Shown here piece by piece: positions 24,172 to 63,962 of a stretch of DNA of 64,000 nt. This stretch comes from a virus, in IMG/VR virus record IMGVR_UViG_3300036760_000522, positions 186,001-250,000 of that record. One strand, given 5' to 3'. The notes under the pieces are model-generated. The model saw only the letters and a list, made by a program, of their open reading frames with translations. It did not search any database and had not been told where the DNA came from. How positions within the stretch are numbered: position 1 is the first letter of the stretch; every line of letters starts with the position of its first letter. The position numbers were made by a program, and so were the translations under genes.

Positions 24172-26070
24172 TCACACAAAAACAAAAACCTGCTCAGTAG
24201 CTGGCACCTTTCCTATTCTACCAAGAGGTAGAACCAAGGTGCGCTGCAAACGAAACCCTGCGAGACCTGCCAGTCGCACCAACTCGTCCGCAATCGGGAA
24301 CCGTTGTGCCCCTCGTCGCACATTCTTTGTGTTCACACAAAACAAACCACCGTCACGTAAGTGTCGTTTGGACTTCAACACGAACGGTTGAAGAAACCCT
24401 TCCAGCCAAAGATCCCACGTTGAATACCTGACCCAACTCTGCGCCGCACTATCAGAGTACTTCTCGACCGAAAAGTACGGAGGACTCGTTAGTACAAGAT
24501 CCGCGCGCAAGTCTGCCAGGTCCACGTCTTCGAACGGGTATTCAAAAAAGTCAAAATGGCCAACCACCGATTGCAAAGCTGTGTATGACGCACCAGCTTT
24601 AGGATGAGGATCAACGCCAACGTATCGTCTACCGCTTGCCAGAGTCCCTACAGCACGACCACCATAACCAGCACACGGATCCAAGACGGTACCGCCAACA
24701 GGGCACAACGCCTCCACCAGAGCCTTTGCAAAACAAGGGCGAAAATTGGTCGGGCCACGAACAACGGCCTGCAAAGCGCGAAACACACGTACAGGCTGCA
24801 CAGGATCACCAACAGCCAATTGAAACTTCACGGCCCTACGCACATATTCCTGGTCGTACCACGCCGATCGCACTGAAGGACGATCTTGATATCTAGCGTC
24901 ATATCTGTGTGGAAAGAACCGCTGACACAGCTTCGATCCTGAACGTGTTTCACGCACCAATCTATCTTCCACTAGTTCAGTTTTGGACAACAACAGCTTA
25001 GACCAATCTATCTCCGCCTCCTCCATCGACGGCACAACCAAAGGCAGCACAGTTCTCGAAAGAACAGCGACGACGCTCTCTACATACGTTAGTGTGCGAG
25101 CGTCCAGCCTCTTGATCGCAAGACTCGCAGTTTCAACGTCCAACTCGACTTTGCTGCTACGTGAAGGACGACCTGTACATCCAGGGGCTAAACCGTGTTG
25201 TTTCCTCCAACGCGAAACACTTGTGCGGGACACTTGAAGTACATCAGCGATGTCGTCGGTATGGAGGCCCCGATCAAATAACGATCGCAAACGATCGTAG
25301 GTCAACAGATCTCGAGGCGCTAAACCAGCCTTGGGCGTCTTGACAGCGATCTTGTAACCGAGGCTAGGATGTAGATGTGGACGCACCAAATCCAAAAACC
25401 TGTTCAGCGCTGTGCGCCCTTGAATGTGGAGGGATCCGTCCTCGTAGACTTTGCTTCTGATACCCAGACTTGTCAGAATTCCAACCTGCACGCGTTGATC
25501 CTCTAGTGAGGGACCAACAGTGATCCTTACGTAATTACCTGAACGCGATCCATCATCCATGAACCAGACAGCCAGAGCTAAGCCGTCTACCCACTCTACT
25601 GGCAAGCGTGTAAACGTTTTGGGCCCTGAACCTGACGGGTAGAACAACTGCCAATAAGGAAAGAGGGCTCGACACGCATGTGTGAACAATCGATGACCCA
25701 GATACTCCCCTTTATCTGCTTTCCGAATGGCTACTGTAAACACCCCCCACTCCTCAGCTTTCCACAACAAATACTCATGTTGTTTGACGGAGTGGTGTTC
25801 TTGGTATCGTGCTGTATTTGTACCAGAACGCCGTAAGTTACCGTCACCTAACATTGATCCAACTAGAATTGACCTCAGACGATCGGTCAAAGTATCTGGG
25901 AGCCCAAAGCGATCACTCTTAGTCAGTGTCGGAATGCCGTACTTCTGGCGAAGACGACTAACGTGTGCTTGGGAAATACCAAACACACGACCAATTTCGG
26001 TCTCTGTCTTGTGCTGATCAAGATAAAGGTCCCGCAGAAATTGTTCCGTCAATCGTGTCGACACCTTCAC
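24172..26070 (-). CDS. Fusion: HTH + LAGLIDADG homing endonuclease + HTH + TSPPY DNA methyltransferase (632 aa)
   Basis: The frame starts at GTG. Residues 21-45 (TEIGRVFGISQAHVSRLRQK) are a helix-turn-helix. Residues 60-240 match a two-motif LAGLIDADG endonuclease: ILVGSMLGDG (68-77, D76) and GLALAVWFMDDGSR (163-176, D172/D173). A second HTH, DDIADVLQVSRTSVSRWRKQ, is at 272-291. Residues of about 380-632 are an amino-methyltransferase with motif I DPCAGYGGRAVG (464-475) and motif IV TSPPYF (528-533). There is no intein splice junction, so this is a fused polypeptide rather than an intein. It may cut and also protect its target site. It is alone, with its own intergenic region upstream. Confidence 0.8.
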   Translation of the reverse strand: MKVSTRLTEQFLRDLYLDQHKTETEIGRVFGISQAHVSRLRQKYGIPTLTKSDRFGLPDTLTDRLRSILVGSMLGDGNLRRSGTNTARYQEHHSVKQHEYLLWKAEEWGVFTVAIRKADKGEYLGHRLFTHACRALFPYWQLFYPSGSGPKTFTRLPVEWVDGLALAVWFMDDGSRSGNYVRITVGPSLEDQRVQVGILTSLGIRSKVYEDGSLHIQGRTALNRFLDLVRPHLHPSLGYKIAVKTPKAGLAPRDLLTYDRLRSLFDRGLHTDDIADVLQVSRTSVSRWRKQHGLAPGCTGRPSRSSKVELDVETASLAIKRLDARTLTYVESVVAVLSRTVLPLVVPSMEEAEIDWSKLLLSKTELVEDRLVRETRSGSKLCQRFFPHRYDARYQDRPSVRSAWYDQEYVRRAVKFQLAVGDPVQPVRVFRALQAVVRGPTNFRPCFAKALVEALCPVGGTVLDPCAGYGGRAVGTLASGRRYVGVDPHPKAGASYTALQSVVGHFDFFEYPFEDVDLADLRADLVLTSPPYFSVEKYSDSAAQSWVRYSTWDLWLEGFLQPFVLKSKRHLRDGGLFCVNTKNVRRGAQRFPIADELVRLAGLAGFRLQRTLVLPLGRIGKVPATEQVFVFV

Positions 26071-35986: not shown

Positions 35987-36505
35987 CTAGATAGACACCT
36001 GTATCCCGAGAAACTCACTGTTCACAGATTTTGGCAATTGTGCAACATGTCCAACCACCGCTGCCGGGGCAAATAAGCTGCCTGACAGTGTCAATTCGTC
36101 TTCAGGTGTCCAGAAACCACGACTTGAAAAATACAAGAGTTGGTTGACTGTGTAGATCAACAGAACCAACGGACCGCCACCAATGCGTGAGGCGTAGGTG
36201 TAGCGCTCGTAAGTAGACGTAGAAATAAGACACCCACCAAAAAGCATGGTTGCGTATCGATAGACAAGCTGTTGGCGAGTCGTCGAAGCAAAGTCGTCCC
36301 CTGGTTCATCTGATCCCCAGATCAAAAACCCACAAGCTCGCCCGTCAGAATAGTCCACCGTCCGATCATCAATCGGCACATCGGCCCAACGAATCCCTTG
36401 GCCCCCAGGCCATCCTCCAACAACCATGGTTGGCTGAATGGTAACGGTCGTCGAGTCTTCCTTGTAGAAGACGACACAATCCCGTGTACGAAGCGTGTCC
36501 AACAT
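35987..36505 (-). CDS. Tandem paralog 3 of a virion-type protein (172 aa)
   Basis: The ATG at 36505 (MLDTLRTRDCVVFYKEDS) is chosen by alignment with its two paralogs; the frame can be extended to 36640 without homologous support. It shares VVGGWPGGQGIRW, the short SDG/GSDE block (FLIWGSDEPGDDF), STYERYTYASRIGGGPL and a beta-rich C-terminus (FSSRGFWTPEDELTLSG) with the two upstream paralogs. It is the most diverged copy. Probably a jelly-roll or beta-sandwich virion protein; function is unknown. Confidence 0.65.
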   Translation of the reverse strand: MLDTLRTRDCVVFYKEDSTTVTIQPTMVVGGWPGGQGIRWADVPIDDRTVDYSDGRACGFLIWGSDEPGDDFASTTRQQLVYRYATMLFGGCLISTSTYERYTYASRIGGGPLVLLIYTVNQLLYFSSRGFWTPEDELTLSGSLFAPAAVVGHVAQLPKSVNSEFLGIQVSI

Positions 36506-36510
36506 GAAGA

Positions 36511-37032
36511 TCACATAATCGTTTGAAGGGTCAAATAGTTGGCCGTAATGACGGTTGGTGCTTGAACAACAAGGCCTGTGTAGTTTGTGTTTGGAGCTCG
36601 AGGGTCGGCTGACAAGGTCCACTCGTCTTCCACTGTCCAAAAACCACGAAGAGAGAAACGCAGCTTTGAACCTTCCACGTAGACCAAGGGGACCAAAGGG
36701 CCGCCCCCTGTACGAGAGGTGTAAGTGTACTGCTCAAAAGTTGTCGTAGCGATCAGCCAACTGCCAATGCACAAAATGACAGCGCCGTATCTAACCTGGT
36801 TGCCGACAAGCGAGATGTACTGATCCGAGGATTCATCTGATCCCCAGAGGGCAAAACCTCCGAACGAACCGTCTGAGTACGTCGTAAGAAATTCGTCTTG
36901 CGGAGAATCCTGCCACTGAAATCCTTGACCACCAGGCCATCCTCCAACCTGAGCCACAGGCGTGATCGCAACTGGATAGGCGTCGCTTCGGTGGAAAACG
37001 ACACAATCCCGAGTCCTGAAAAGTTCGGCCAT
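36511..37032 (-). CDS. Tandem paralog 2 of a virion-type protein (173 aa)
   Basis: The ATG (MAELFRTRDCVVFHRSDA) overlaps the upstream stop (TAATG). It is closely related to the copy at 37032-37550, with blocks of near-identical DNA: the C-terminal end (plus strand 36562-36595) and the FWTVEDEWTLSADPRAPN segment are almost unchanged between the two. It contains VGGWPGGQGFQW, FALWGSDESSD and FEQYTYTSRTGGGPLVPLVY. Predicted beta-rich. The neighbours and copy number suggest a virion part; no family was recognised. Confidence 0.65.
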   Translation of the reverse strand: MAELFRTRDCVVFHRSDAYPVAITPVAQVGGWPGGQGFQWQDSPQDEFLTTYSDGSFGGFALWGSDESSDQYISLVGNQVRYGAVILCIGSWLIATTTFEQYTYTSRTGGGPLVPLVYVEGSKLRFSLRGFWTVEDEWTLSADPRAPNTNYTGLVVQAPTVITANYLTLQTIM

Positions 37033-37550
37033 TACAAAGTCGTCTGGATGGTCAAGTAGTTCTCGGTCACCGCGGTTGGTGCTTGAACAACAAGGCCTGT
37101 GTAGTTTGTGTTTGGGGCCCGTGGATCAGCCGAGAGCGTCCACTCGTCTTCCACTGTCCAAAAACCACGAAGAGAGAAACGCAAACGGTCTGAAGCGTTG
37201 TACGTCAGTGGTACAAGGGGACCTGCTGTTCGAGATGCGTAGGTGTAGCGCTCGTAAGTCGAGGTCATGATAAGCCACGACCCTACAGCCATTGTCGAAA
37301 CTCGGTAAAACGGCTGGTTACGTGTCATCGATGTGAACTGATCCGAGATCTCGTTAGAACCCCAAAGAATGAAGCCGCCCGGCTCACCATCAGAGTAGGA
37401 AACTAAAAACTCATCCCGCGTAGAAAGAACCCAACGAATCCCTTGGCCCCCAGGCCATCCTCCCGCGGCCAACGCTTCAGACACAGTGACGGGGTACTCA
37501 TCACTGCGAAACAAGATCACGCAGTCTCGTGTGCGAAATTGCTCTGACAC
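37032..37550 (-). CDS. Tandem paralog 1 of a virion-type protein (172 aa)
   Basis: The GTG start has AAGGA 7 bases before it. This first copy of the triplet has AAGGWPGGQGIRW, FILWGSNEISDQF, STYERYTYASRTAG and FWTVEDEWTLSADPRAPN. It shares long stretches with the copy just downstream, which suggests recent duplication or gene conversion. It might be a head fibre or a decoration subunit; this is inferred only from beta-rich composition and module position. Confidence 0.65.
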   Translation of the reverse strand: MSEQFRTRDCVILFRSDEYPVTVSEALAAGGWPGGQGIRWVLSTRDEFLVSYSDGEPGGFILWGSNEISDQFTSMTRNQPFYRVSTMAVGSWLIMTSTYERYTYASRTAGPLVPLTYNASDRLRFSLRGFWTVEDEWTLSADPRAPNTNYTGLVVQAPTAVTENYLTIQTTL

Positions 37551-44439: not shown

Positions 44440-45102
44440 TCACTCACAGACGTTTCCACCCCTATTTGCCCACTGGGGCAAAGAGACGGCGCGCAAGATA
44501 TTAAAATTTTTCGCAGCAATAGTGCTGAAAATCTTCTCATACGGAACGTACTTTGAATCTTCTTCGGCCGCGCCTTTCAAGCGATCAACAGCACGAAAAA
44601 AATAGTGACGCACACCACTCTGTGGGATGCTCAGGCGCAAAGCCACTTCAGACTGACAGGTAGTCTGCCACATGCCCACCAAAATGTTGACGTCTCGAGA
44701 ACTGAACAGCGATGACAAGTCAGTACGCATGTCCTCTTCCGTGACCTGCGGTATGCTCAACAAGAATTTTAGCCGCTTGATCCCGCGAGCAAGTCGGTAG
44801 CTGACAGCCGCTTGTGTCACTTCGAAGATCGCTGCAATGTCGGCCTGCTTCTTCCGCAAAATGTAGTAGAGCAAAATCAAATCGGCCTCACGCCCCGGGA
44901 TACGATCCAACAAAGGCATGATTTTCTCTTCATACGAACTGGTGGCAAAGAACGCTTCCAAATCCTCGGTACTGACGCCCTCGATAGAATCAGCGTCGAC
45001 ACTGTCACCTGTGTCGTCAGCAAAAAAGGCGTCGTCTTCAGACGAGAATCGGGTAGCCAATCTCATCGGATCAATCGGGATCACATATCCGGCAGTACTC
45101 AC
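44440..45102 (-). CDS. Sigma-factor-like regulator (220 aa)
   Basis: The GTG start has GGAGG 7 bases upstream. Residues of about 55-125 (IPGREADLILLYYILRKKQ, DIAAIFEVTQAAVSYRLARG) match the sigma-70 region 4 pattern: a helix, then an HTH with the recognition helix QAAVSYRLARGIKRL. A second possible HTH, VALRLSIPQSGVRHYFFRA, lies near 165-185. No region 2 (-10 recognition) is visible, so it may work with host RNA polymerase as a late-gene sigma or co-activator, as T4 gp55 does. It lies at the boundary between the replication and head modules, which suits a late regulator. Confidence 0.65.
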   Translation of the reverse strand: MSTAGYVIPIDPMRLATRFSSEDDAFFADDTGDSVDADSIEGVSTEDLEAFFATSSYEEKIMPLLDRIPGREADLILLYYILRKKQADIAAIFEVTQAAVSYRLARGIKRLKFLLSIPQVTEEDMRTDLSSLFSSRDVNILVGMWQTTCQSEVALRLSIPQSGVRHYFFRAVDRLKGAAEEDSKYVPYEKIFSTIAAKNFNILRAVSLPQWANRGGNVCE

Positions 45103-45122: not shown

Positions 45123-46973
45123 TTAAATCGCAAGTGACGACATGTAGTCTTGCGAGTCGTTACCAACCACAACATCCGACTGCGGAAAGAACGCAGACAA
45201 CAAACCTTCAAACTGTATGCCAATGGACTGCAAACGTTTGGTGGCGGAGGCCTGATCAGGCTCCGCAGAGATCGTTGTTACGTCCACATCCTGTAGGGAC
45301 ATCAGTTCCAGATTCAACTTGACGGTCGACTCCGCAGTCTGCAAACGAGCGTACTGTGCCTTGGTCACAGACGCCAGCCCGGACTGATAGATCCTGTCAA
45401 CAGAGCCATAGGCCTTCAAGAGATCCGTGAGTACTTTCTTCGGCACTCGACAGACTCCGCTCAAATTATCACTCGTGTCGCCAAACATGGCTCGCAATTC
45501 GAGCATTTTTCCGGGAGGTACACCAAAACGACGAGATACCTCCGCAGAATCAAAGAGCACTTCATTACGTGCGCCCGTAGCTGGCACCAAAACGTGTGTA
45601 CGGTCAGTAACCAACTGTAGAAAATCCCGGTCCGATGAAAAGATGAGGTTGTTTTGATCAACCAGATCGCGCCTCACCAAAGTCGCAATCACGTCATCCG
45701 CCTCCTCAGCAGGGTTCCAGTGTTGTCTGACCCCTACAACGGGTAGCAGCGTGCGCAGCGTAGCAACCACCCACGAGATGTCCTGGGACTTCCTCGTGGC
45801 CTTGTAGGCAGCATATCGGGCCTTGCGACGTGCTGAGGACCCGTCCCACGCCACCCGCAAGGCTGCGGTCGAGTAACGCTTTCGAAGGGAATCCAAGCTG
45901 CGCAAAAATCCAAGGACGGCTCCGGACGGCTCCCCTTGATGAGTCAGGGTGTTCAGCCCTTTAGCGTAGAAGCAACGGTACGCCAAGGCGTGACCGTCTA
46001 CGATGACGTTGTGTATCAACTTCCCTCCATCCTCTTGTTGTGACGAGAACTGTCGTGACAAGTTGTCGACCTCTTCCCAAAGTTTCTGCAAACGATCAAC
46101 TATGCTCGCCACGTGTTTTAGGTGGCGCCACCACTGACGTATCGTTCGCAAGCCAGTATCAGACAAGCGATACGCGACGACAAACGTGCACAACAAATGT
46201 CCACGACTCTCCAGACGATGGAGACGGTTGTAGTCATCGCAATCACGATGCAACGACTGCCATTGCTGTCGAATCGTGGTATCAAAAGCCAGGAATCCGC
46301 ACAAATAACGCCCAGAAACGTACCACTGATTGACGGATCGGTAATCCCTATAAACATTCACCAGAAAATCTGGCGTCAAAGAGTTCCAACAGAAAATCGC
46401 TCGGGTGTCACGAGTCCACTTCAGCAAAACATCAATACGATCGCGCTGATTGGACCACGTGGCTCGCTCCACAACTTGCAAGGCAGAACGAGGGATCGTC
46501 AACAAGGCTTCCTTGGACCTCAACTTGAGACGAACTTGCACCATGTCGCGTTCCGGTATCTCCTCGTGAACGTCAGCTTGCAAGCCATGATATATGCCTG
46601 TAGTGATCACGACGACGTCGCCGATGCCTATGCCCTGATCCGTGAAAGTGCGGATCTGATTTTGCAATTTCTCTACAGCGTCATCACTTACAGTTGATAG
46701 AGTTCTATTATGTCCTGGTTTCACCAGAACAGAAGTCACGAATTTGGTGCCCTCGAGTTTGAAAAAATCATCAGTTCGACGACGCCCGTCAAGTCTGACA
46801 AATGCGTAGCCGTCCACCAAATACTGATAGGTTCGGCTGCCGCCGACTACAGACACAGCAGCCGGAACAAATACCTCAGCACCCTTCAGTGATCGTGTAA
46901 TAGCGTCCGAAAGGATCTTGGGGTCCTCTTGCTCACCACGAGCGCTCAACTCCAGGACTACCCACTCGCCCAC
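45123..46973 (-). CDS. NusG-like NGN/KOW domain fused to flap-endonuclease-type 5' nuclease (616 aa)
   Basis: The start is GTG. Residues 1-85 resemble the NGN fold (EWVVLELSARGEQEDPKI, VFVPAAVSV, YLVDGYAFVRLD), and 116-165 a KOW barrel (IGDVVVITTGIYHGLQADV). A helical linker with many Trp/Arg fills 170-315. Residues 321-600 are a PIN-type 5'-3' exonuclease as in T5/T4 FEN: VDGHALAYRCFY (D326), RVAWDGSSARRKARYAAYKA (D377), PAEEADDVIATL (E423, E424, D426, D427), FSSDRDFLQLV (D448, D450) and MFGDTSDNLSGV (D499, D502). The nuclease should trim Okazaki flaps. A NusG-like part would bind RNA polymerase. The join is in one frame. Confidence 0.8.
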   Translation of the reverse strand: MGEWVVLELSARGEQEDPKILSDAITRSLKGAEVFVPAAVSVVGGSRTYQYLVDGYAFVRLDGRRRTDDFFKLEGTKFVTSVLVKPGHNRTLSTVSDDAVEKLQNQIRTFTDQGIGIGDVVVITTGIYHGLQADVHEEIPERDMVQVRLKLRSKEALLTIPRSALQVVERATWSNQRDRIDVLLKWTRDTRAIFCWNSLTPDFLVNVYRDYRSVNQWYVSGRYLCGFLAFDTTIRQQWQSLHRDCDDYNRLHRLESRGHLLCTFVVAYRLSDTGLRTIRQWWRHLKHVASIVDRLQKLWEEVDNLSRQFSSQQEDGGKLIHNVIVDGHALAYRCFYAKGLNTLTHQGEPSGAVLGFLRSLDSLRKRYSTAALRVAWDGSSARRKARYAAYKATRKSQDISWVVATLRTLLPVVGVRQHWNPAEEADDVIATLVRRDLVDQNNLIFSSDRDFLQLVTDRTHVLVPATGARNEVLFDSAEVSRRFGVPPGKMLELRAMFGDTSDNLSGVCRVPKKVLTDLLKAYGSVDRIYQSGLASVTKAQYARLQTAESTVKLNLELMSLQDVDVTTISAEPDQASATKRLQSIGIQFEGLLSAFFPQSDVVVGNDSQDYMSSLAI

Positions 46974-46976
46974 AAG

Positions 46977-48404
46977 TTACACGCCTGTTGCCAGAGTGGT
47001 GTGGAACTGCCAAAATTTCAGACGCCATTCCGGAGGCGTCAAAAATCCTTCTCGTGAGAGGACTTTAGGCTTCGGCACTGGATCCGTCTTCTGTCCTCGT
47101 GACGCTTCTCGAGGAACAGCCACTACATCCATGGATGTCAACGCCTGCACATCAGGGGATCCCAAATTTCCGATCCCGTCTGCACGCAACCCAGTCACTG
47201 TAGGCGCCGCCACGACAAGCTTGGCCGGATTGTGTTGTGGCAGTGCTGGCGTCGACTCTTTAGCTGTCGGTTCCTTAGCTGTCGACATTGCTGTAGGTGC
47301 AGCTGTCGACACAGGAGCAGGTATTGTAGGTGCAGCCACAAAAAACACAGGAGCCTGTTGCTGCGCTGGTCTGTCAGGAGCGCCAGAAGCACACAAGACT
47401 GCATCGCAGATCAAACTTGATCGTGTAACACGTCCAGGCTTCATCAAGTATTCAACCAAACGGATCACGCCGGCTTGATACTTAGTCCAAACACGAGCCG
47501 CCAAGTCACGATCGACGCGTGAGTAGTCAGCTACCATATTGTTGGCCAGACGAAAGCTATTCATCGCAGCCTCAGCCAAGCCCTCAGAAACTGCGTCCGG
47601 AGAAACACGGTCACAGATCTCCTCAATCAACTGTACCGCTGTGGAGGTGTCGCCAAGAGCCAGTAGGATCTCATAGTACCGTGTAACATCCGACAGATTC
47701 AAGTGCTCACGTGCCGAAGTCAGTGTGACAGGACCCAACTGGGCTAGCATCTCCAACGTGTTTAGAGCGTCACGCACATGCCCCAAGGAGTGGTCCACCA
47801 CCGTCCACACAGCGTCGTCTTCGTACGTCACACCCTCTTGAGTAAGAACCCACGTAAGACGTGCAAACACGTGTTCCCGAGTGATCCTCCGAATCTGATG
47901 CTCCTCACAGCGGGAACGGATCGGTGCCCGTATCTTGTCAGGTTCCGTAGTGCAGAAAATACCTACTAGTAGTTTGTCTTCCAACGGCTTCAGCAAAACG
48001 TCCTGGGCATCCCGACTCATGCGATGAACTTCGTCGAAAATGTAAATTCGTTTTGACGCGCCTGCGACCAGAAACGGCAGACTATCGACAATGGCTCTGA
48101 CATTGTCGATAGTGCCTCGACTAGCAGCGTCCATCTCCTGCAAAGCCGGGGCAGTCTCATTCAGTGTATCGAGGCAGTTTTCACACTGATTGCACGGCTC
48201 AGAGTCCTCAGTTAGGGCCTGACACAACAAAGCGCGGGCCAGGATGCGGGCCAGGGTTGTTTTGCCGCGTCCAGCTCCTCCACTGAAAATGTAGCTCGTG
48301 TCGAGCCCTGTGCCTCGACGCAAACGCGACTTCAGGACTTGGACGGCTCCCTCTTGGCCGAGCACGTCGCTGAACCGCAGCGGCCTGTACCTAACATCCC
48401 ACAT
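46977..48404 (-). CDS. dnaX: Clamp-loader ATPase, DnaX gamma/tau type (475 aa)
   Basis: The protein has the AAA+ DnaX layout. It starts MWDVRYRPLRFSDVLGQE, the typical first motif. FSGGAGRGKTTLARILA (about 41-57) is Walker A, the zinc module CQALTEDSEPCNQCENCL (about 64-81) follows, IYIFDEVHRM is Walker B, and APIRSRCEEHQIRRIT contains the SRC arginine finger. Residues 180-330 are lid and collar domains. The last 120 residues are Ala/Pro-rich linker and a short basic tail, shorter than bacterial tau. It loads the sliding clamp on primed DNA. It lies 12 bases after the metallopeptidase-like gene. Confidence 0.88.
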   Translation of the reverse strand: MWDVRYRPLRFSDVLGQEGAVQVLKSRLRRGTGLDTSYIFSGGAGRGKTTLARILARALLCQALTEDSEPCNQCENCLDTLNETAPALQEMDAASRGTIDNVRAIVDSLPFLVAGASKRIYIFDEVHRMSRDAQDVLLKPLEDKLLVGIFCTTEPDKIRAPIRSRCEEHQIRRITREHVFARLTWVLTQEGVTYEDDAVWTVVDHSLGHVRDALNTLEMLAQLGPVTLTSAREHLNLSDVTRYYEILLALGDTSTAVQLIEEICDRVSPDAVSEGLAEAAMNSFRLANNMVADYSRVDRDLAARVWTKYQAGVIRLVEYLMKPGRVTRSSLICDAVLCASGAPDRPAQQQAPVFFVAAPTIPAPVSTAAPTAMSTAKEPTAKESTPALPQHNPAKLVVAAPTVTGLRADGIGNLGSPDVQALTSMDVVAVPREASRGQKTDPVPKPKVLSREGFLTPPEWRLKFWQFHTTLATGV

Positions 48405-50771: not shown

Positions 50772-51455
50772 CTACGCTCGACGCAAAACGAGATGGGTAC
50801 CATCAGAGACCTCTTCCTCTTGACACCGGTAAGCCGAGTGTGCGTGATCCAGAAAAGCGGTCTTCTGTGTGACCAGAAGGACGTCGAAACCAAGACGGTC
50901 CGCTAAATCTCGAATGAAACGCCCCGCGGCGTCAACGTAGTCGTCAGACACAGCTGCCAACGACTCATCTAAGATCAGAAATGGCCAAAGCTTCAATTTC
51001 TTGATCGCCAAGATTCTCAAGATCAAAGATACCACGGAACTAGGGCCTCCTCCGAAGGAGTCCAAAGGGGGTCCGACATGTGAAAAAGGGTCGTCTAGAG
51101 TACCTCGACGTATAGCGAACTCGACTGAAATCTTGTTGTACTTCGGACCAACATCCGACTCCAAACTGAGATTCAGGTCGTGGAACACTGTGTGTAAGCC
51201 TTCCGTCGCCACACGCTCTACAGAGCGAACTTGTTGGTTGACGAGCTGATCCATCAAAATGTGGAACAGCTCACCGACCTTGGACAGAATCTCGATCTCT
51301 GCGTCCAAATCGCGGATTTTTTTCGCACAAGAATCTGCATCAGATTGTACGGAGTCACGCAAAGTGTGTAGCTTGACGGCTTTCTGTACGACCAGATCTG
51401 TGCGCCGCGTGAGATCCGCTACGTCATGGACGTTGTGAAGCGCGACACTTGACAC
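50772..51455 (-). CDS. C-terminal half of a split SbcC/Rad50-type ATPase (227 aa)
   Basis: The GTG start has GGGAG 7 bases before it and overlaps the clamp gene by 37 bases. Residues 20-80 are coiled coil. Then come FGGGPSSVVSLILR (134-147), the ABC signature, FLILDESLAAVSDD (159-172), Walker B with D163 and E164 plus D-loop, and VLLVTQKTAF (192-201) where the H-loop is expected, with Gln in place of His. There is no Walker A, so it must pair with the N-terminal half encoded at 54801-56156. Together with the SbcD homolog they would form an Mre11-Rad50-like nuclease for DNA ends. Confidence 0.8.
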   Translation of the reverse strand: MSSVALHNVHDVADLTRRTDLVVQKAVKLHTLRDSVQSDADSCAKKIRDLDAEIEILSKVGELFHILMDQLVNQQVRSVERVATEGLHTVFHDLNLSLESDVGPKYNKISVEFAIRRGTLDDPFSHVGPPLDSFGGGPSSVVSLILRILAIKKLKLWPFLILDESLAAVSDDYVDAAGRFIRDLADRLGFDVLLVTQKTAFLDHAHSAYRCQEEEVSDGTHLVLRRA

Positions 51456-52693
51456 AGGTGTGCTCCCTCTTGTCCTTCAGTAGGAACCACCAATTTTCCT
51501 GACTCCGTCAAGTGATACTCATCCACTGTACAAAAGGCCAAACGAGTCGAACTTTTTTTCTCCTCAGTGCCGGTGGTAGCAGCAGCCTTGGACGGTATCA
51601 GCAATGCACGAAGCTCCACCAAATGGCTCTTGGACTTGTCAAATAGAGACAAAAAACTACGAATGTTGATGTTAGAAGCAAACGTGGGTTTCTCTGCCTG
51701 CCGGACAGGATCTGTCTCGACGGGCATGCTCGTCACAACATCCGAATCCAAACTGCAACGAAACAGCAGCTTTGAATCTTCGTACGTGACTCGCACCTTG
51801 TCTTGTGGACGGTCCCCGAACTCTGCAATCATCTGCCGCAGCACTCGAACAATCTGGTCCCGAGGCACACGCAGAATGAACTTGGCGTATTCGTCCGGCG
51901 GATAGCCGTAGCGACTATGCTCTTGAACGTGCCTCGTCCAACCAAACACTGACTTGATCTCGGACGAGCCGGGGACCTGGTCTTTCGCGAAACACATCCG
52001 CTCTTCAACCTGAACACGGACTGTCGGAGAACACTTGGACAAGTAACTGATCAACATAGGGACATGGTGCGCATGGATGCCAAACCCTTTGTCCTTCAGT
52101 GACGGACTGTGAAAATGACAAACACGTTGTCCGTCCGCTGCAAAAAAAGTGCCGTTACCAGATGCGTACTCTGCACGAGCACTGTCGAACAACTGTGCAA
52201 CACGCAACGGATTCGACTCATCGGTGCCGTCAGGTGCCAAGTAGTCCGCCACCTGTGACAAGGCTTCCCGCAAGAGTACTGTCGAGAACACGTAATCCGT
52301 ATCCTGTGCGCTTCTCTTGATACTCGTAAATGCAGATTTATAGAAATCTGGATCATGTGACGATCTATCAGCGGTGACGCCCTCCTCGGTACGATACTTC
52401 ACCCAATGGCGGTCTCCGTCCTTGCCAGGCTCAATCTCAATCCAACCGTTCAAATGCTTCAAAGCTTCGACACGATCAGCCGGCCACGAAAACATCATGG
52501 CGCCTTCACCATCAACCATTTCGCACGGTATGGACACTCGAGAGTAGTGAAAGCGGTCCTGAGAATGCACCAACATCTGGTCATCCTGTGTAGTAAACAG
52601 GTAGGCTTTCTCGTGGTCCACACTCAAAGGCTTGACTACCGAGACACGGTTCAAAGCCTCATTCAGATCCTTCAGCTGTACCCTGACCTTCAT
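51419..52693 (-). CDS. DnaN-like sliding clamp candidate (424 aa)
   Basis: The ATG start has GGAG upstream and overlaps the preceding stop (ATGA). The start MKVRVQLKDLNEALNRVSVV and the three-part layout, each part beginning with a helix such as VLLREALSQVADYLAPDG (about 135) and FILRVPRDQIVRVLRQMIAE (about 265), suggest a three-domain beta-clamp fold. It is longer than bacterial DnaN (about 370), with an insert in the second domain and a Ser/Lys-rich loop near residue 385. Its location between recombination genes and near the clamp-loader gene supports a processivity-factor role. Similarity is moderate, so this is a tentative call. Confidence 0.55.
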   Translation of the reverse strand: MKVRVQLKDLNEALNRVSVVKPLSVDHEKAYLFTTQDDQMLVHSQDRFHYSRVSIPCEMVDGEGAMMFSWPADRVEALKHLNGWIEIEPGKDGDRHWVKYRTEEGVTADRSSHDPDFYKSAFTSIKRSAQDTDYVFSTVLLREALSQVADYLAPDGTDESNPLRVAQLFDSARAEYASGNGTFFAADGQRVCHFHSPSLKDKGFGIHAHHVPMLISYLSKCSPTVRVQVEERMCFAKDQVPGSSEIKSVFGWTRHVQEHSRYGYPPDEYAKFILRVPRDQIVRVLRQMIAEFGDRPQDKVRVTYEDSKLLFRCSLDSDVVTSMPVETDPVRQAEKPTFASNINIRSFLSLFDKSKSHLVELRALLIPSKAAATTGTEEKKSSTRLAFCTVDEYHLTESGKLVVPTEGQEGAHLCQVSRFTTSMT

Positions 52694-63182: not shown

Positions 63183-63962
63183 TTAGCACAAATCTACGAA
63201 AGCAATCTCAGAGATACACGCTGTACCGAGCTTGCGAGCCGCCTGAGCCTTCGACGACGTTGACTCCGGATCCGACATAACCAAGTACGTGAGACCGCGC
63301 ACAACGGACGATTTGACCGATGCGCCTGCCTGCTCAGCCAAACGTTCAAGCTCAGCTCTAGGTCGCGACGACTTGCCTGTGAAGCACACCGACTTGCCTG
63401 TGAGCTTACCTGAAGAACGTTCCCGCAAAGAAACTCCAGCCTCCAAAATGTCATCCACCATGGCGTGGTTCTTTGTCAGCCAAGCGACCAAAGCCTCAGC
63501 TCGAGAAGGACCGACGCTTGGCACAGTACACAGCTGATTCGATCGCGCTGTCCGAAGCTTTTCCACAGTGTAGAAACCCGCCAACACGAGTGCTTCGAAT
63601 GTGATCTCCCCACAAAGCGGAACACAAAGTGACCCAAGGAACTTGGGTAAGGAAACAGGTAGCGGGCGACGCAGCTCCGACAATAACTTCCTCGCAGATA
63701 CCTCTCCCAAGCCAGAAATCCCGACCAAGTCCTCGTACCGAAGCCGGTACAGGTCCGCAACAGACTCCACGTGTTTTCCGACGACGAGTTTCTCGATCAC
63801 GACCTCGCCCCATTCCAAGATCCCAAGCCCTTTGACCCAGCGACGAATTCGGCCCACCGTTTGAGCCGGGCAATTTTCGACATTGGTGCAGACAAGATGC
63901 TCTCCTTCCCAGTGGACAGCGGACTGACACGCTGGACACACTTCAGGAAACAATGCCAACAC
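63183..63962 (-). CDS. C-terminal half of NAD-dependent DNA ligase (zinc finger, HhH, BRCT; 259 aa)
   Basis: A GTG opens the frame; a TTG three codons later has AAAGGGG at better spacing. C9, C12, C25 and C31 form the LigA zinc finger. HhH units follow (YEDLVGISGLGEVSARKLLS, LCTVPSVGPSRAEALVAWL), and residues of about 180-259 are a BRCT domain (GKSVCFTGKSSRPRAELERL, GLTYLVMSDPESTSSKAQAA). The adenylation and OB domains are missing and an in-frame stop lies 33 bases upstream, so the ligase is split, as in T5-type phages; the other half may lie beyond the right edge. Confidence 0.88.
   Translation of the reverse strand: MLALFPEVCPACQSAVHWEGEHLVCTNVENCPAQTVGRIRRWVKGLGILEWGEVVIEKLVVGKHVESVADLYRLRYEDLVGISGLGEVSARKLLSELRRPLPVSLPKFLGSLCVPLCGEITFEALVLAGFYTVEKLRTARSNQLCTVPSVGPSRAEALVAWLTKNHAMVDDILEAGVSLRERSSGKLTGKSVCFTGKSSRPRAELERLAEQAGASVKSSVVRGLTYLVMSDPESTSSKAQAARKLGTACISEIAFVDLC

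Follow-up and report, generated by a model that had tools for sequence, protein, structure and literature searches.

An NGN-KOW protein fused to a FEN-type 5′ nuclease in a replication operon of large phages

Introduction

Proteins of the NusG/RfaH/Spt5 type consist of an NGN (NusG N-terminal) fold followed by a KOW domain. In RfaH, the NGN surface binding the β′ clamp helices includes residues W4, Y54, and F56, and variants substituted at this surface are less active (PMC2871177). Sigma and NGN proteins are competitors for the clamp-helix site, and Rho and S10 share one binding region on the KOW domain of NusG (PMC7819879). Annotated NGN-KOW proteins are already known from phages (e.g., gp582 of Bacillus phage G, which belongs to PHROG 6386, “transcription antiterminator”). 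The 5′ nucleases of the flap-endonuclease type (FEN), such as the bacterial and phage FENs, the Pol I 5′ nuclease, T5 D15, ExoIX, and SPO1 gp32.85, are either free-standing or located ahead of PolA. In T4, the FEN gene rnh adjoins dsbA and the late coactivator gene 33, and in SPO1 the FEN gp32.85 lies near gp33/gp34. Late transcription of T4 is coupled to replication via the sliding clamp; gp33 occupies the sigma-4 site and gp55 the sigma-2 site, and the late module (gp33, gp55, gp45, and gp44/62) links replication proteins to the redirection of host RNA polymerase (PMC2988020).

Here we describe a phage gene in which an NGN-KOW module and a FEN are joined in one reading frame. The initial annotation of this DNA knew of no described example of such a layout, and likewise we found no description of a NusG-FEN fusion, of a NusG-nuclease fusion, or of NusG in huge phages in the open-licence literature. 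To our knowledge, no member of the NusG family carries a DNA- or RNA-processing nuclease. NusG is not mentioned in two reviews of jumbo phages (PMC7824862; PMC13282480).

The fusion gene and its domains

The sequence studied, called the window below, is a stretch of 64,000 nt corresponding to bases 186001–250000 of the 301,550-bp IMG/VR virus record IMGVR_UViG_3300036760_000522. At 45123..46973 on its minus strand lies a single open frame with a GTG start and no internal stop, encoding 616 aa. On the same strand, the product divides into an NGN domain (residues 1–111; 46641..46973), a KOW domain (residues 115–170; 46464..46631), a variable helical linker (residues 171–320; 46014..46463), and a FEN/5′-3′ exonuclease domain (residues 321–600; 45174..46013). 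Profiles, model, and alignments agree with the layout that had been read from this frame at the outset, namely NGN plus KOW, a helical linker of ~150 residues, and a FEN with every acidic residue in place.

The FEN half matched Pfam 5_3_exonuc_N (PF02739) at residues 323–484 (E = 3.2e-31) and 5_3_exonuc (PF01367) at residues 485–563 (E = 3.1e-11). Its acidic residues D326, D377, E424, D426, D427, D448, D450, D499, and D502 do not vary among the 30 fusions aligned. A full-length AlphaFold model (30 sequences) reached a pLDDT of 82, with most of the FEN blocks above 90 and with the linker modeled as long helices at moderate confidence (pLDDT about 48–78). FEN structures were the best matches of this model, including M. 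smegmatis FEN, ExoIX, T5 FEN, and Taq. The domain shares both Pfam families, the nine acidic residues, and the fold with the known FENs, but it is placed behind NGN-KOW. A C-terminal “ILxxFF” was considered as a clamp-binding (PCNA-binding, PIP-like) tail and rejected, since it reads as the conserved terminus of the Pol I 5′ nuclease domain.

The NGN-KOW assignment is firm. As a single sequence, the protein matched the Pfam NusG family at residues 21–103 with E = 0.0038 (18.1 bits) in full length, and with E = 0.0006 (20.7 bits) when residues 1–190 were used alone, both below the curated cut-off of 22.2 bits. A profile built from ten relatives, of which 8/10 matched Pfam KOW and 8/10 matched Pfam NusG individually, hit T. 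maritima NusG (2lq8) with E = 6.9e-9 across both NGN and KOW (model positions 3–163), followed by Aquifex NusG, NusG KOW domains, and Spt5; E. coli NusG was also reached with both hmmsearch and hhalign. The AlphaFold model of residues 1–177 (47 sequences; the input alignments for AlphaFold were those of the protein's own family) showed the NGN elements and a five-strand KOW barrel, with a mean pLDDT of 92.2 and mostly 91–97 in the NGN block. All 30 PDB matches of this model at E ≤ 0.001 were NusG, RfaH, or Spt5 chains, or complexes containing one, so that the predicted structure folds as NGN plus KOW; a different fold of residues 1–165 was one of two outcomes by which the initial annotation would have considered its reading refuted. 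The TM-scores of the 30 matches by query length were just 0.27–0.47, most simply explained by a different relative orientation of NGN and KOW in the model, and the KOW domain alone superposed on the M. tuberculosis NusG CTD (2mi6) with an rmsd of 1.1 over 54 columns. The initial annotation had judged the NGN assignment weaker than that of FEN, which no longer holds.

Relatives and operon structure

At every NGN locus examined, the gene order was constant: clamp loader, NGN-KOW(-FEN), sigma-4-like homologue, a context absent from the initial annotation. In the window, the upstream partner is a DnaX-like clamp loader (46977..48404, minus strand; PHROG clamp loader, E = 1.5e-51), and the downstream partner is a sigma-region-4-like HTH protein (44440..45102, minus strand; Pfam Sigma70_r4_2, E = 1.6e-11). 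The block usually begins with a putative phage metallopeptidase (48417..48926, minus strand; Pfam PhageMetallopep, E = 5.2e-23). Genes usually overlap or are separated by a few tens of bases, except in L140, where a gap of 1.6 kb precedes the sigma-like gene. Because the clamp-loader and sigma-like neighbors are constant, the NGN-KOW-FEN gene belongs to a replication/phage-transcription block. Sharing a block with genes for replication and for the start of transcription suggests a physical link between the copying and the reading of viral DNA.

Scans of viral contigs gave 75 NGN loci, many of them on identical or overlapping contigs; single-sequence queries found few loci, and alignment queries were required. 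Among 49 non-identical relatives, 31 were fused, 7 had adjacent but separate NGN-KOW and FEN genes, and 11 had NGN-KOW without a FEN in between; fused and split loci were metagenomic throughout. The host search found no NGN-family relative in genome contigs, and no tRNAs were found in the 64-kb window. Since phages with NGN-KOW but without FEN exist, the NGN module has a job independent of FEN. Separate NGN-KOW and FEN genes overlap by 4 bases in four loci (L027, L028, L143, and L160), and such genes are probably translationally coupled, judging from the overlap. The linkers of fused proteins vary from 101 to 200 residues and have no invariant position. The most divergent fused member is L104/L141, whose longest NGN frame extends into the clamp-loader gene for up to 179 bases and has an uncertain start.

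In a concatenated tree of clamp loader, NGN, and sigma-like proteins, the fused proteins group together, with the split locus L116 inside the fused clade. The L116 frame is interrupted immediately ahead of FEN, at an A7 run (L116:3601-3780), and the interruption could be either a real split, a programmed frameshift, or an assembly indel. With the root placed by our choice, this tree can plausibly be read as a progression from no FEN through separate genes to the fusion.

That two genes were joined here by an assembly error or a frameshift is practically out of the question and is already refuted by the data. It might be argued from the split-gene relatives and from the break in L116, and the initial annotation had named halves that are separate in relatives, joined by a sequencing error, as what would overturn the fusion. 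Such separate genes do exist, but in just 7/49 relatives; the 31 non-identical fused proteins, which come from many metagenomes, outnumber them and also answer the earlier call for a search for this architecture elsewhere. Moreover, the comparison of the window frame with the 95%-identical L002 gave dN/dS values of 0.06 (NGN-KOW), 0.19 (linker), and 0.07 (FEN); all three parts are under purifying selection. The NGN-KOW-FEN fusion is genuine, and neither chance nor artefact.

Residues aligned with polymerase and partner contacts of RfaH and NusG

RfaH W4, Y54, and F56 align with W4, Y56, and F58 of the fusion protein, and these residues are conserved in 44/45, 45/45, and 45/45 relatives, respectively, also in those without FEN. 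Position 8 is Glu in 44/45 relatives, while the contact residue of RfaH there is Tyr8 (PMC2871177), and docking may therefore differ. In the KOW domain, Arg152 (Arg in 39/45 relatives) aligns with F165 of E. coli NusG, which we take to be a key residue of the S10/Rho contact region, so that these usual partners are unlikely. Thus, the protein resembles NusG, RfaH, and Spt5 in its domain order and in its retained RfaH contact residues, and differs from them in Arg152, in Glu8, in its long helical linker and C-terminal nuclease, and in being encoded by a phage within a replication operon.

We regard it as quite unlikely that the NGN-KOW part has lost RNA polymerase binding and serves as a nucleic-acid- or replisome-binding module that directs FEN to the clamp loader or to DNA or RNA. 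Ribosomal proteins, too, contain KOW folds and were further, weak matches of the family profile, and the neighboring clamp loader and Glu8 would fit such a module as well. However, nearly all relatives, FEN-less ones included, retain the three residues aligned with polymerase contacts, and the sigma-4-like neighbor is constant.

Nuclease and polymerase genes in whole records

Whole-record searches covered 16 records, which may be incomplete (eight of the fused type, five without FEN, and three of the split type). Exactly one PF02739 nuclease, the fusion itself, was found in each of the 8/8 fused-type records, one in each of the 3/3 split-type records, and none in the 5/5 records without FEN. 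A separate gene for a PolA-type polymerase was present in 13/16 records, and RNase H1 (PF00075) had no match in the 16. Each record had one NGN copy and no second. No multisubunit RNA polymerase was detected in the 16 records by a PF04998 search for β′, and a β′ motif scan found none either. As no RNA polymerase was detected in these phages, the host polymerase is the most likely target of an NGN that retains its contact residues.

A possible though not probable explanation of the fusion is that the protein is bifunctional and uncoupled: FEN would be an ordinary Okazaki-primer nuclease in place of the 5′ nuclease domain that the phage PolA lacks, NGN-KOW would be a transcription factor of the ordinary kind, and their joining would fix only the co-expression of two neighboring genes. 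The single-copy FEN, the separate PolA gene, and the absence of a detected RNase H1 accord with this, as do the relatives in which both halves remain separate adjacent genes and the unconserved sequence of the linker. On the other hand, the fused state has lasted throughout a diverse clade, in which a single later split is apparent, a linker of 101–200 residues is always retained, and the FEN genes of T4 and SPO1 also adjoin late-transcription genes.

Proposed function

We lean, with modest confidence, toward a coupled function, in which the protein would be a specialized phage paralogue of NusG/RfaH acting on host RNA polymerase and carrying the only detected FEN of the phage, so as to couple transcription and replication. 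RNA polymerase binding, nuclease activity, and this coupling are what we infer from the sequences. Besides the domain homology, the retained contact residues, and the constant operon, the single FEN per fused-type record, the 4-base overlaps of split genes, and the late-transcription neighbors of FEN genes in T4 and SPO1 speak for this reading; Glu8, Arg152, the FEN-less relatives, and the moderate confidence of the modeled linker speak against it. NGN would most likely dock on the host polymerase at its clamp helices and act as an elongation factor for phage transcription, and KOW would bind a partner specific to the phage. The helical linker, long and divergent, could let FEN reach RNA-primed or displaced 5′ ends close to the transcribing polymerase; candidate targets are transcript-derived primers, R-loop-like structures, and Okazaki flaps on DNA undergoing transcription and replication simultaneously. 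FEN may act on R-loops, on transcript-derived primers, or on Okazaki flaps only, with each of which the sequence is compatible. The initial annotation proposed that the fusion could bring a 5′ nuclease to transcribing polymerase, for instance to deal with R-loops or conflicts, and this accords with the operon and with the retained contact residues.

An elongation factor fused to a nuclease of the lagging-strand/R-loop type, and kept across diverse large phages, would be genetic evidence for a direct transcription–replication link. Two contacts are predicted from the fusion, one between NGN and the polymerase clamp helices and one between KOW and a new partner, and the protein may offer a natural means of bringing FEN to transcription complexes. 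The already annotated phage protein gp582 of Bacillus phage G is likewise an NGN-KOW protein (our family matches PHROG 6386), but it has no fused FEN, and no clamp loader, FEN, or sigma-like homologue was detected within about 8 kb of it.

The fusion would turn the replication–transcription linkage of the T4 type into one polypeptide. It seems rather unlikely, though conceivable, that the sigma-4-like protein occupies the β-flap site (as gp33) and NGN the β′ clamp-helix site (as gp55) in a non-T4 machine for replication-coupled transcription, in which a NusG-family protein is half of a split initiation/elongation factor carrying the replisome flap nuclease, with the clamp loader alongside. The T4 system differs in having no NusG-like protein. 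Sigma region 2 (PF04542) had no match in our fused record G000 or in most other fused records, where divergent gp55-like proteins could escape such a search; G006 had one sub-threshold match.

Other observations

The clamp-loader ORFs of four relatives (L114, L121, L123, and L140) have large in-frame insertions near the P-loop, with the profile match covering 1–49 and resuming at ~480, and that of L170 (L170:4161-6047) has an in-frame insertion at its DEC|H box with intein-like ends. Judging from the sequences, these insertions are probably inteins. In the replication block of the window, a 424-aa ORF (51419..52693, minus strand) had no Pfam or PHROG match, and its N-terminus is sliding-clamp-like by eye only. 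The NAD-dependent DNA ligase is apparently split, with the HhH/BRCT part at 63183..63962 of the window and the adenylation domain in a separate ORF ~0.9 kb upstream (G000 250858-251544). By eye only, a long ORF at 24172..26070 (minus strand) seems to combine a DNA methylase with a LAGLIDADG-type homing endonuclease that is either fused to it or inserted into it. Finally, three adjacent related ORFs of about 172–217 aa with FRTRDCV... repeats, at 35987..37550 of the window (minus strand), are probably tandem duplicates.
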